Positions 29,878 to 35,831 of a stretch of DNA of 64,000 nucleotides are shown in pieces. Below the pieces are notes generated by a model, which saw only the letters and a program-made list of their open reading frames with translations, made no database searches and was not told the DNA's origin. The DNA comes from Leptospirales bacterium (lineage in GTDB: Bacteria > Spirochaetota > Leptospiria > Leptospirales > Leptospiraceae). The stretch spans positions 62,001 through 126,000 of the forward strand of contig JAAFIR010000004.1 in NCBI GenBank assembly GCA_013297885.1, written 5' to 3'. Numbering within the stretch: position 1 is the first letter of the stretch; every line of letters begins with the position of its first letter. The translations under genes and the position numbers were made by a program.

Positions 29878-30384
29878 TTAATTTTTTCTCACAAAATAGT
29901 CAATAGAATCCTTCATAAACCTTGCAAATTCTGGATAAGCTTTTCCTTCAATTAAAGTATATCTTTCATCGAGAGTATAAAGTTCTCCTAGACCTTTAAA
30001 TTGATTTTTTAAATCATCTTTTGAATCTTTTTTACCCCAAATTTCTTTTATAATTTGAAAAAAGTTTCCAATTTCTTCTTGGACTTTTTTGGAATCAATT
30101 TTTTCTTCTTTTAGATTAAATAATAAACTCCAAGAAGTTTTCATTTTATGAAATAATTCTTCTCTGTTTTTTTTGGAGAGTTTTTTTAAATAATTTTCGG
30201 ACTTATTAAAATCATTTCCCCAATTCTGAATTGATTCATTTCGATAAGTTGAACCAAATTCTTTTGGTAATCCTTCATAAATTTCTTCATGTGCCATTTG
30301 ACCAAGCTCATCATATAGATGTAATGTTTTGATACTTACCCCAGCAAGTTTACTTAATTCTTTTACAGTATAATACTTCATCAT
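29878..30384 (-). CDS. TipAS-type antibiotic-binding domain with a truncated MerR HTH
   Basis: A 168-residue protein. Residues 1-27 (MMKYYTVKELSKLAGVSIKTLHLYDELG) are the start of a MerR winged HTH. From about residue 28 the sequence goes directly into a TipAS ligand-binding domain (EEIYEGLPKEFGSTYRNESIQNWG ... LGELYTLDERYTLIEGKAYPEFARFMKDSIDYF). The rest of the HTH, the wing and the long dimer helix (about 80 residues) are missing, without a frameshift. The protein probably cannot bind DNA like TipAL. Its TipAS part could still bind thiopeptide-like compounds. Known TipAS-only forms arise by internal start; here the HTH stub is kept. Confidence 0.8.
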   Translation of the reverse strand: MMKYYTVKELSKLAGVSIKTLHLYDELGQMAHEEIYEGLPKEFGSTYRNESIQNWGNDFNKSENYLKKLSKKNREELFHKMKTSWSLLFNLKEEKIDSKKVQEEIGNFFQIIKEIWGKKDSKDDLKNQFKGLGELYTLDERYTLIEGKAYPEFARFMKDSIDYFVRKN

Positions 30385-30502: not shown

Positions 30503-30545
30503 AAAAGGAGTTCCTGTTTTGTTCGCTTTTTTGCAATACGACATA
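30503..30545 (-). repeat. family-B short repeat, copy 3
   Basis: On the minus strand TATGTCGTATTGCAAAAAAG then CGAACAAAACAGGAACTCC and CTTTT. It is the best-conserved copy. It follows family-A copy 6 in the same orientation. The gap 30385-30885 holds these two repeats and the promoter region of the ahcY operon; no gene is supported in it. Confidence 0.75.
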
Positions 30546-30634
30546 ATTTTTCAATAAAAGAAAATCTCCTCCACAAAAAAATTTCCCCAACACGGTTATG
30601 CAAAATTCCATCAATACCAATAAGTTTTTCAAAA

Positions 30635-30791
30635 CTAGCGAAATGGGATTGAAGCGTTTCTCCATCCAAAGCATTTATATAAAACCTTCTGTTCTAATGC
30701 GATTTCCTCGGATGGAGAAGTAGCGAAAAGCCCGTTTTTTTAAAAGTAAGGACTTAATGAATTAAGACCTTACTTTTAAAAAATTCGCCCA
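30635..30791 (-). repeat. family-A two-hairpin repeat, copy 6
   Basis: On the minus strand: TGGGCGAA (30791-30784), stem 1 of about 20 bp built on AAAAGTAAGG and CCTTACTTTT, middle box CGGGCTTTTCGCTAC, stem 2 CTTCTCCATCC/GGATGGAGAA, closing box CAATCCCATTTCGCTAG (about 30651-30635). The first 65 bases nearly equal those of copy 7, on the other side of the ahcY operon and inverted. Confidence 0.85.
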
Positions 30792-31914: not shown

Positions 31915-33211
31915 AACTGAAGATTACAAAGTAAAAGATATGTCCCTTGCAGATTGGGGAAGAGAAGAGATCATCTTAGCTGAAAAAGAAATGCCAGGCT
32001 TAATGGCGATCAGAAAAGAATACGCTTCTAAAAAACCTCTAGCTGGTGCAAGAATTTCTGGTTCATTACACATGACAATTCAAACAGCAGTATTAATAGA
32101 AACTCTTGTGGAACTTGGTGCAGAAGTTAGATGGGCATCTTGTAATATTTTTTCAACTCAAGACCAAGCAGCAGCTGCAATTGCAAAAGCTGGAATTCCA
32201 GTATTTGCTTGGAAAGGTGAAACTGAAGAAGAATATTGGTGGTGTACTGAACAAACTATTTTTTTTGGAGATGGCAAAGGACCAAATATGATTTTGGATG
32301 ATGGTGGCGATTTAACTTATCATATCCACACAAAATATCCAGAACTATTAAAAGACATCAAAGGTGTTTCAGAAGAAACAACTACAGGTGTTGTGCAGCT
32401 TATGAAAATGTTAAAAAGTGGAGAATTAAAAATTCCTGCTATCAACGTAAACGATTCTGTAACAAAATCAAAATTTGACAACTTATATGGATGTCGTGAA
32501 TCTCTTGCTGAAGCAATCAAAAGAGCAACTGATGTGATGTTAGCTGGTAAACTTGCAATTGTTGCTGGTTATGGTGATGTTGGAAAAGGTTCTGCAGCTT
32601 CATTAAGAAATTATGGTTGCCGAGTTATCATTACTGAAATCGATCCAATTTGTGCGTTACAAGCAGCAATGGAAGGTTACCAAGTATTAAGAATGGAAGA
32701 CATCATTGACAAAGCAGACATCGTTGTAACAGCAACTGGGAACAACGACATTGTTACTTTAGAGCACATGAAATCAATGAAAGATTGTGCAATTCTATGT
32801 AACATTGGTCACTTTGACACTGAAATCCAAATGGCTCGTTTAAATTCAATGCAAGGTTTAACTAAAAAAGAAATCAAACCTCAAGTTGATAAATATACTT
32901 TCCCAGATGGAAAATCACTTATCATTTTAGCAGAAGGAAGACTTGTAAATTTAGGTTGTGGAACTGGACATCCTTCATTTGTGATGTCAAATTCTTTTTC
33001 AAACCAAGTTCTAGCTCAAATCGAACTATACACAAACACTTCAAAATATCCAGTAGGTGTGTATCGTTTACCAAAAGAATTAGATGAAAAAGTTGCAGCA
33101 TTCCATTTGGAGCAAATTGGTGTTAGGTTGACAAAACTAACTAAAGACCAAGCAGATTATTTAGGTGTAACACCTGAAGGTCCATACAAACCAGAACATT
33201 ATAGATATTAG
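31898..33211 (+). CDS. ahcY: adenosylhomocysteinase (SAH hydrolase)
   Basis: A 437-residue NAD-dependent enzyme that splits S-adenosylhomocysteine into homocysteine and adenosine, clearing the inhibitor of methyltransferases. Motifs are [82 protein letters not shown], the NAD fold [19 protein letters not shown], and the C-terminal [20 protein letters not shown]...[17 protein letters not shown]. Lys and Tyr of that end contact NAD of the neighbouring subunit. The Shine-Dalgarno AAGGAGG lies inside the end of the upstream gene. It is coupled to the ArsR-methyltransferase. Confidence 0.97.
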
Positions 33212-33266
33212 TTTAGTGTTCATCGCTTCGCTCATAATTAGGAATGAATAATGAAAAATTATGAAT

Positions 33267-33391
33267 GGGGCGAATTTTTTAAAAGTAAGGTCTTAATTTA
33301 TTAAGCCCTTACTTTTAAAAAAACAGGCTCTCGCTCTGGTCAAAATTTTTTATTCAAAAAATTTTGACCCTGCTTCGATCCTTTTCGCATT
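33267..33391 (+). repeat. family-A two-hairpin repeat, copy 7
   Basis: GGGCGA at 33268-33273. Stem 1 TTTTTTAAAAGTAAGG../..CTTACTTTTAAAAAA (about 33275-33295 with 33301-33322). Middle box ACAGGCTCTCGCTC. Stem 2 GGTCAAAATTTTTT/AAAAAATTTTGACC. Closing box CTTCGATCCTTTTCGCA (33373-33389). It starts about 55 bp after the ahcY stop and could act as its terminator. The gap 33212-33713 otherwise holds a family-B copy and T-rich DNA with no gene. Confidence 0.85.
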
Positions 33392-33429
33392 GCACCCAAA
33401 AATTTTCCTAGTATGAGAATTTTACCGAT

Positions 33430-33464
33430 TTTGCAAAATACCGAACAAAACAGGAACTCCTTTG
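33430..33464 (+). repeat. family-B short repeat, copy 4 (shortened)
   Basis: TTTGCAAAATACCGAAC followed by AAAACAGGAACTCCTTTG. It lacks the TATGTCG head of the longer copies. It lies 40 bp after family-A copy 7 in the same orientation. Confidence 0.65.
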
Positions 33465-33713
33465 ATTAAGAATGAAGATTTTTTTGTCAAAATTGTTTTT
33501 TTTTAAGTGAAACTCATTTTTACGAACTAAACTATTAAGAGCAATTTAGGATTTTTTTTTGAAAAAATATTTCATAATTTTGAAAACTTAATTATTTTGT
33601 AATTTAAAAAATAAAATAATTTTTTCAGAGGAATTAGCTTTCTAAAATTTAGTCTTTATTTAATACCTTCAATTTTCAAAAGGTAATAATTTTAACAGTG
33701 CGAAAAATAAGAA

Positions 33714-34420
33714 ATGAAAAATAAATTTGAAAAAGGCATTTTAACAAATGGTGGATTTTATTTAGGTGAAAAAATTAATACAAATTTTCATTCTCATTTT
33801 GCATATATATTTATATTTTCCAATGACAAACAAACCAAAATCATTACAAAAAATAAAACTTATTCCTGTCCAGTTTTAATAAATAAAAATTTAACAAAAA
33901 AAATCATCTCCCCACCAAATTCAAAACAATTATTTATTTATATTGACCCGTTTTCAAAATATGGTTTATATCTAACACAATTATTTTCTAAAAAAGAAAT
34001 TTTAAAATTAGACGAATACAATTTTTTGAATCAAAATTTAATTCTAGAAAAAGAAATTAATATTTTTTTGGAAAATTTTTTTGATACTTCAAAATGGAAA
34101 ACAAAAAAATGGATAACCGAATCATTAGTTTAGTTTTTTTGATAAAAGAGAAAATTTTAAAGGAAGAAAAAATAAATTTGGAACAAATCTCCCTAGAATT
34201 AAAAATTTCAAAAAGCAGATTATTACATTTAATTAAACAAGAAACAGGAATAACATACAGAAAAATAATTTTGCATTATCGTTTAGTTTTTGCGATGAAA
34301 TATTCCAGTTCAATGAATTTATCAAGAGCAGCTTTAAAAGCAGGTTTTGTGGATATATCTCATTTTTCAAATTATTATAAATCTACTTTTGGAATAAAAC
34401 CAATCCTCACAATCAAATAG
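33714..34420 (+). pseudogene. AraC-family regulator interrupted by a -1 frameshift at an A7 run
   Basis: The first frame (33714-34133, 139 codons) encodes an N-terminal cupin-like domain (FHSHFAYIFIFSND, KNKTYSCPVLIN). The second frame (ATG 34094 to 34420) encodes a full AraC C-terminal double HTH (INLEQISLELKISKSRLLHLIKQETGITYRKIILHYRL ... LSRAALKAGFVDISHFSNYYKSTFGIKP). The switch falls at ACA-AAA-AAA-TGG, where A AAA AAA (34103-34109) is in phase for -1 slippage and would yield one chain of about 235 residues, the usual AraC length. It may be a true frameshift mutation, a slippage-controlled gene, or a base-calling error. Confidence 0.75.
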
Positions 34421-34496
34421 CTAATTTATACAACTTTATTCTGGTAATAAATAATTTTATGAATTGAAAATTATCCTCAATTCATAAAAAAGAGTT

Positions 34497-34901
34497 ATGA
34501 ATAAAATTGTACCTTATCTAATCATTCTGAATCATTGCACTGAAGCAATTGAATTGTATGTAAAAGCATTTTCAGCTGAAATTAAAATTAAACAAAAATA
34601 TTCAGAAACAGAATATGAAGTTTCACAAAACTATAAAAATTCAATTGCACATGCTGAAATCATTTGTAATGAATTTCATTAGATGTTAAGTGATGGTTTT
34701 CCTGAAAAAGAAATTCCAATTGGAGAAAATATTGCACTCAGTGTTAGATTTAATTCAAAAGAAAAACAAGAATTTGCTTTTTCAGTTTTAAAAGAAAATG
34801 GAACTGTAACAATGGAATTTTCTGAGACTTCCATCAATTCAAGACTTGGAACATTAATAGATAAATTTGGGATTCATTGGTATTTGAATTTTTCTTTGTA
34901 G
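34497..34901 (+). pseudogene. PhnB/VOC-family protein broken by an in-frame TAG
   Basis: Two pieces in the same frame (34497-34682 and 34683-34901), separated only by TAG at 34680-34682. Together, about 134 residues match the PhnB-like glyoxalase/VOC family: PYLIILNHCTEAIELYVKAFSAE at the start, SIAHAEIICNEFH-stop-MLSDGFPE in the middle where homologues read a hydrophobic residue, and LGTLIDKFGIHWYLNF at the end. A single-base change from TTG or CAG would explain the stop. It lies just after the broken AraC gene, so the two were probably one module that is decaying. The internal ATG right after the stop has no ribosome binding site. Confidence 0.75.
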
Positions 34902-34966
34902 ATTATCTAAAGTAAAATCCTTTTATAGGATTTGACAAACTCAATTCTAAAATTATTTTAAATATC

Positions 34967-35539
34967 ATGCAATTAATGAGTAAAAATCCAATTTTAGCAT
35001 TAATCCTTCTCTTAACAATCTTCATTTTTTTCTTCAATTGTAAATCAACTGAACATGCAACTCGTTTAGAAAAATGGAGTTGGATGATGGAACAAGAAAA
35101 AGAGATTTTTCAAGACTCCATTTCAGAATTTGGAAAATTAAAACCACTTGTAGAAAGAAAAAATCCTGGGAATGAAATTGTTTATGATGAATATTTACTT
35201 ATAATATATTCAACTGAAAACTTTGCTGATGAAATTTGTAAAACTTTAAAAGAAGCCAAATTAATTAAAGATACTCATTATATTTTGAATAATGATAAAG
35301 AAGATAAAATTCCTTGTTTTGATGAGTTTGCAACGGCACTAGATTTTCAAATTTCAAATTATGAAGAACTCCATCAATATTTTATGAAAAAAGAACTTAA
35401 ATTTAATACAAAAGACATTAAAGAACTTTGTAAAAAATTCAAATGTGATCGTGAACCAAATAGGAAAGAGCTCCAAGACAATGCTAAATTATTAATTGAA
35501 GAGTTGAAACTTTATCGCAGCAAAATCAGATTAAATTAA
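34967..35539 (+). CDS. small lipoprotein, function unknown
   Basis: A 190-residue protein whose N-terminus MSKNPILALILLLTIFIFFFNC is a lipoprotein signal (lipobox Cys at about residue 25 of the longest frame). The mature part is helical, charged and holds four further Cys, two of them in ELCKKFKCD near the C-terminus. Start: ATG 34967 gives MQLM; the second ATG at 34976 is equally possible. No domain is recognised and no neighbour suggests a role. It ends 2 nt from the convergent antitoxin gene. Confidence 0.65.
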   Translation: MQLMSKNPILALILLLTIFIFFFNCKSTEHATRLEKWSWMMEQEKEIFQDSISEFGKLKPLVERKNPGNEIVYDEYLLIIYSTENFADEICKTLKEAKLIKDTHYILNNDKEDKIPCFDEFATALDFQISNYEELHQYFMKKELKFNTKDIKELCKKFKCDREPNRKELQDNAKLLIEELKLYRSKIRLN

Positions 35540-35541
35540 CT

Positions 35542-35808
35542 CTATTTCAATTTCCCAGTTACATATTGGTGTAAAACGCTAGTGACCAAAGTTTGATATG
35601 GAATTCCAATTTCAAATGCTTTTGTTTTTAAAAGTTGCATATCTCTACTTGCAATTCGGATGTTCATTCTTTTATTTTTTAGAAGAGAATTTTTCGCTGC
35701 TGATTTTAATTTTTTTAAAATGAGAGTTTTATTTGCAACAGGTTTCCATTCATCTTTGTTGATGGAACTTTCTAGTTCTTTTTCTTTTTTGGTAAGTTTA
35801 AATTTCAT
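35542..35808 (-). CDS. RHH/CopG-type antitoxin without visible toxin
   Basis: An 88-residue protein. The C-terminal half (KRMNIRIASRDMQLLKTKAFEIGIPYQTLVTSVLHQYVTGKL) is a ribbon-helix-helix module of the kind fused to or paired with BrnT/RelE-like toxins. The N-terminal 45 residues are charged (LTKKEKELESSINKDEWKPV) and likely bind the toxin. I choose ATG 35808, which has AAGGAA 6 nt upstream, over the TTG at 35823. The 100 bp upstream are a promoter, not a toxin gene, and the downstream neighbour is a convergent lipoprotein gene, so the antitoxin is orphaned. Confidence 0.8.
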   Translation of the reverse strand: MKFKLTKKEKELESSINKDEWKPVANKTLILKKLKSAAKNSLLKNKRMNIRIASRDMQLLKTKAFEIGIPYQTLVTSVLHQYVTGKLK

Positions 35809-35831
35809 CTTATGTTCCTTCAATCAATAGT

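Follow-up and report, generated by a model that had tools for sequence, protein, structure and literature searches.

A probable frameshift pseudogene of an AraC-type regulator, broken at an A7 run in an AT-rich, spirochaete-like bacterium

Reading frames broken at a run of A are known from several kinds of system. The locus described here shares with the frameshift pseudogenes found at A/T homopolymers of AT-rich bacteria a one-base break at an A run, a single lesion and clean halves on both sides, and it is also like them in that the gene is accessory, intact homologues exist elsewhere and a second broken gene lies beside it. This class of feature is already well known, and its cause here is probably an ordinary one. 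With the −1 frameshifting sites of the dnaX and IS3/IS911 type, which use A_AAA_AAG or, in some IS elements, A_AAA_AAA, the locus shares a heptamer of the form X_XXZ_ZZN in the right phase. In contrast to those sites, its A7 run comes without an upstream Shine-Dalgarno (SD) element, a downstream structure or a conserved frame split, and the motif belongs to the background of the genome. Genes rescued by transcriptional slippage (Shigella mxiE, Citrobacter rodentium tssM and the poly-A genes of endosymbionts) likewise have a slippage-bridgeable break at an A run, but the run here is 7 and not 9 or more. The heptamer itself is capable of shifting, as A_AAA_AAA in an E. coli reporter cassette gave 10% frameshifting (PMC3711429). 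The dnaX gene of the present genome is a 516-aa open frame.

The features of the locus are listed below; positions are those of the window, by which we mean the whole 64-kb stretch of DNA analysed.

33224–33463, + strand: intergenic, dispersed repeat lying 5′ of the broken regulator gene
33714–34133, + strand: ORF1, 139 aa, N-terminal part of a short AraC-family regulator; residues ~15–113 align with the N-termini of homologues
34085–34133, + strand: −1 joining stretch of 49 nt, the sole place where a −1 shift can link both frames
34094–34420, + strand: ORF2, 108 aa from the ATG at 34094, C-terminal half with the AraC helix-turn-helix (HTH) domain, in the −1 frame, recognised by profile match
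34103–34109, + strand: A7 run, in phase with ORF1 as A_AAA_AAA, the most probable place of the indel
34497–34901, + strand: VOC/YjdN-like gene, the next one downstream, broken by one in-frame TAG at 34680–34682

The frame of ORF1 reads ACA AAA AAA TGG at 34101–34112 and the A count is exactly 7, which confirms in the sequence the in-phase A_AAA_AAA that the first-pass annotation had placed at this position. The ORF2 frame has an upstream stop at 34082–34084, so the −1 joining is limited to 34085–34133, and this stretch contains no run of five or more A or T apart from the A7. A −1 shift at the A7 gives a fused product of 132 + 103 = 235 aa, the last seven residues of ORF1 lying past the run and out of frame. 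ORF2 matches HTH_18 with an E-value of 1.7e-13 (profile positions 4–74 of 80) and HTH_AraC with 7.7e-11; the frames together with these matches confirm the earlier statement that the shift leads from ORF1 into the AraC HTH domain. The same annotation took 235 residues for a normal family length, which is plausible, yet it is at the short end in comparison with homologues of ~243–281 aa. It also expected a run of six A and a run of eight A each to restore one frame; only one of these lengths joins the frames, while the other meets a stop. The C-terminal domain with two helix-turn-helix motifs that marks an AraC-family regulator is thus present on ORF2, but the N-terminal domain is not in the same polypeptide, as it is in the homologues, since the break separates the two halves. 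Both ORFs are otherwise open and carry this single lesion; therefore, either the frame was lost very recently or the product continues to be of use.

Comparison with intact proteins shows that ORF1 and ORF2 once formed a single AraC-type gene. Intact homologues, L018, L003 and L008 among them, match residues ~15–113 of ORF1 with their N-termini, and the fused 235 aa align at residues ~15–230 with intact proteins, among them L003 (E 2.5e-25) and L026 (E 4e-21), the latter being a protein from a Flavobacteriales MAG and a full-length homologue at 30%. All 15 aligned homologues, which are ~243–281 aa long apart from one of 316 aa with a far-upstream start, read continuously and without a gap through the junction at residue 132/133; it is on this continuity that the view of a single original gene is based, and the earlier claim of one AraC-type gene broken at the A7 is borne out by it. 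The junction sits in the linker, directly ahead of the conserved D-x-R-I/V segment that opens the HTH module. None of the listed matches from other genomes has an internal stop, and the break is confined to this genome; a frame split together with the motif is thus not conserved among the homologues. No close ortholog in which conservation of the A7 could be followed was found in three genus mates, four further family genomes and 393 phylum genomes.

The gene next downstream is broken as well. With X put in place of its stop codon, the VOC/YjdN-like gene matches NCBIfam NF007537 (E 2e-11) and Pfam 3-dmu-9_3-mt (E 2e-8); both of its parts are otherwise intact, and its relatives are open and continuous. 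This VOC-family gene is dead or dying by way of a nonsense codon. The lesion is a substitution, and therefore neither homopolymer slippage nor a reading error explains it.

How unusual is the heptamer at the break? In an AT-rich genome a slippery heptamer may give a false lead, and the proper control is its in-phase frequency in the intact genes of the same genome. The sample for this comparison consisted of the 64-kb window and 240 kb of further stretches (L070–L081), 304 kb in all with a GC content of 27.5%, holding 227 intact ORFs and 239 kb of coding sequence. Of the 52 intact ORFs of 150 aa or longer in the window, 37 carry in-phase A_AAA_AAA, 71 copies in total (1.37 per kb). The whole sample has 357, spread over 164 of its 227 intact ORFs, so about three in four intact genes carry one. 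Shuffling synonymous codons within genes gave an expectation of 331 ± 11 against the 357 observed (z +2.3), i.e. no avoidance, and 6.0% of 49-nt codon-aligned segments from intact genes hold an in-phase A_AAA_AAA. Lysine codons are AAA in 93% of cases (6996 vs 545 in the sample), and such motifs therefore arise freely. The heptamer at the break of the AraC-type gene is genome background and not rare.

Longer runs behave differently. The 239 kb of coding sequence hold 321 A7, 174 A8 and 59 A9 or longer runs; the last are depleted relative to synonymous shuffles (59 vs 87, z −6.1), and therefore the length at which selection acts is greater than 7. Nine nucleotides is also the run length at which selection becomes visible in many bacteria (PMC1088944). 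Whereas A7 is underrepresented in all frames in the enterobacteria of PMC4066793, here the in-phase A_AAA_AAA is unavoided and A9 or longer runs are avoided. Across the 304-kb sample, coding A7 and A8 runs are commoner than synonymous shuffles predict and A9 or longer runs are rarer; A_AAA_AAA in the −1 slippery phase is not avoided, although mild depletion is seen in both remaining phases.

The locus is probably a recently frameshifted accessory gene for an AraC-family regulator of ~235 aa, of mutational and not purpose-built origin. The A run at the inter-domain linker would have changed in length, most likely by replication slippage, and this change would have shifted the HTH domain into another frame. 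The host gene would be an unneeded, acquired regulator, and the result a young pseudogene in a decaying accessory segment. What the sequences show is the broken frame, the homology that spans it, the intact genes of relatives, how common the motif is, the second lesion and the lack of stimulators; the mechanism of the mutation, its direction and the loss of function are inferred. The gene is disrupted relative to intact homologues and has decay nearby, the combination by which a pseudogene is recognised; the broken VOC gene, a MerR-TipAS gene short of most of its middle and a broken AAA_14/DUF4143 gene belong to this decay. The gene would be a pseudogene without a functional product. The A7 may let a small fraction of ribosomes make the full-length protein, as in any gene, and selection for this is not indicated. 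Given the 10% shift of A_AAA_AAA in the reporter, transcription of the gene, if it occurs, is likely to yield some fused protein. The four causes that had been listed unranked in the first-pass annotation can thus be separated to some extent: a mutational origin is the best supported of them, and programmed frameshifting is not supported.

The other causes were weighed on the same evidence. A sequencing or assembly error, in which the A run was miscounted and the real gene is intact, would account for a single-base discrepancy at a homopolymer between two otherwise clean frames; however, intact ORFs of the window read in frame through more than 100 A7–A9 runs, so the assembly cannot be called homopolymer-poor, and a miscount leaves the TAG in the adjacent VOC gene unexplained. 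We consider such an error unlikely. It is quite unlikely, too, that the regulator persists at low output or in a switchable form, with ribosome slippage at the A7 or a reversible change of run length yielding a small or variable amount of the full-length protein, in a genome that tolerates in-phase A_AAA_AAA in most of its genes. Another proposal is phase variation, in which slipped-strand changes in run length would alternately activate and silence the regulator. A/T tracts of 7 or more are recognised as substrates for it (PMC3711429), this run lies at the inter-domain linker and one length change joins the frames. Nevertheless, hundreds of intact genes have equal or longer A runs, depletion begins only at A9 or longer, which leaves A7 outside the hypermutable class of this genome, the neighbouring VOC gene is broken too, and a break at the position of the A7 is absent from the relatives compared, all of which makes phase variation very unlikely.

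A further reading is that A_AAA_AAA serves for programmed −1 ribosomal frameshifting, or for transcriptional slippage, which would fix the proportion of full-length regulator to N-terminal fragment. The heptamer at 34103–34109 is in the correct phase for it, though so is that in 6% of comparable segments, and the reporter value cited above attests its capacity to shift; on the other hand, heptamers show low unstimulated shifting in E. coli (PMC4066793), where A_AAA_AAA is also much less shift-prone than A_AAA_AAG (PMC5009743). Neither an SD-like nor a structural stimulator accompanies the A7. None of the kinds of SD-like element examined in PMC4066793 occurs 6–17 nt upstream of the run, and the downstream stimulator structure that the first-pass annotation had suggested looking for was sought and not found, shuffled sequences folding at least as well as the downstream one (z +1.22 for 98 nt and +0.81 for 61 nt). 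The motif is ubiquitous and unavoided in the intact genes of this genome, and no homologue has the frame split. As for transcriptional slippage, 7 A is short of the approximately 9 or more A/T at which it is expected; selection becomes visible at a run length of 9 in many bacteria (PMC1088944), and in the present genome at 9 or more. We therefore regard a programmed or transcriptional bypass as highly improbable. The two halves could instead be made as two proteins, the HTH half serving as a stand-alone regulator of SoxS/MarA size through coupled or internal initiation at the ATG at 34094 or 34109. Both ATG codons of ORF2 do lie within the overlap and ORF2 is of SoxS-like size, but no Shine-Dalgarno motif precedes either codon, and the intact relatives make one protein. 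Such an arrangement is extremely improbable.

The recent frameshift that we favour lies in a variable segment downstream of ahcY, in which, judging from the genomes compared, the regulator gene is accessory. It was not found in three genus mates (G001–G003), which gave weak HTH matches only; in genus mates the genes found after the methyltransferase–ahcY pair are not those of this segment but VapC and metH, joined in G003 by a ferredoxin-type gene. The interval from ahcY to the regulator gene consists partly of the dispersed repeat. A consensus scan revealed no promoter excess and no terminator.

Several further observations concern the surroundings. Copies of the repeat lie at 33268–33329 and 30729–30790, and at 33402–33463 and 30504–30565, i.e. 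on either side of the methyltransferase–ahcY pair in inverted orientation. Part of the repeat is a near-perfect palindrome (TTTTTTAAAAGTAAGG...CCTTACTTTTAAAAAA), to which Rfam, searched over 33000–35000, returned only sub-threshold microRNA-like matches. The region 33212–33713 has ~60 partial matches in its own genome and very few in the genus mates. A MerR-TipAS gene nearby upstream (29878–30384, − strand) has a 26-residue MerR match directly before the TipAS domain and is without most of the span from the start of the helix-turn-helix to that domain; it has probably suffered an internal deletion. A CopG/BrnA-like antitoxin-type ORF at 35542–35823 (− strand) of the window gave a weak match. 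In the adjacent 20 kb of the same genome, an AAA_14/DUF4143 ATPase gene (L070 1839–2442, C53:43839-44442) lies in two frames with its middle mostly missing and is a further broken accessory gene.
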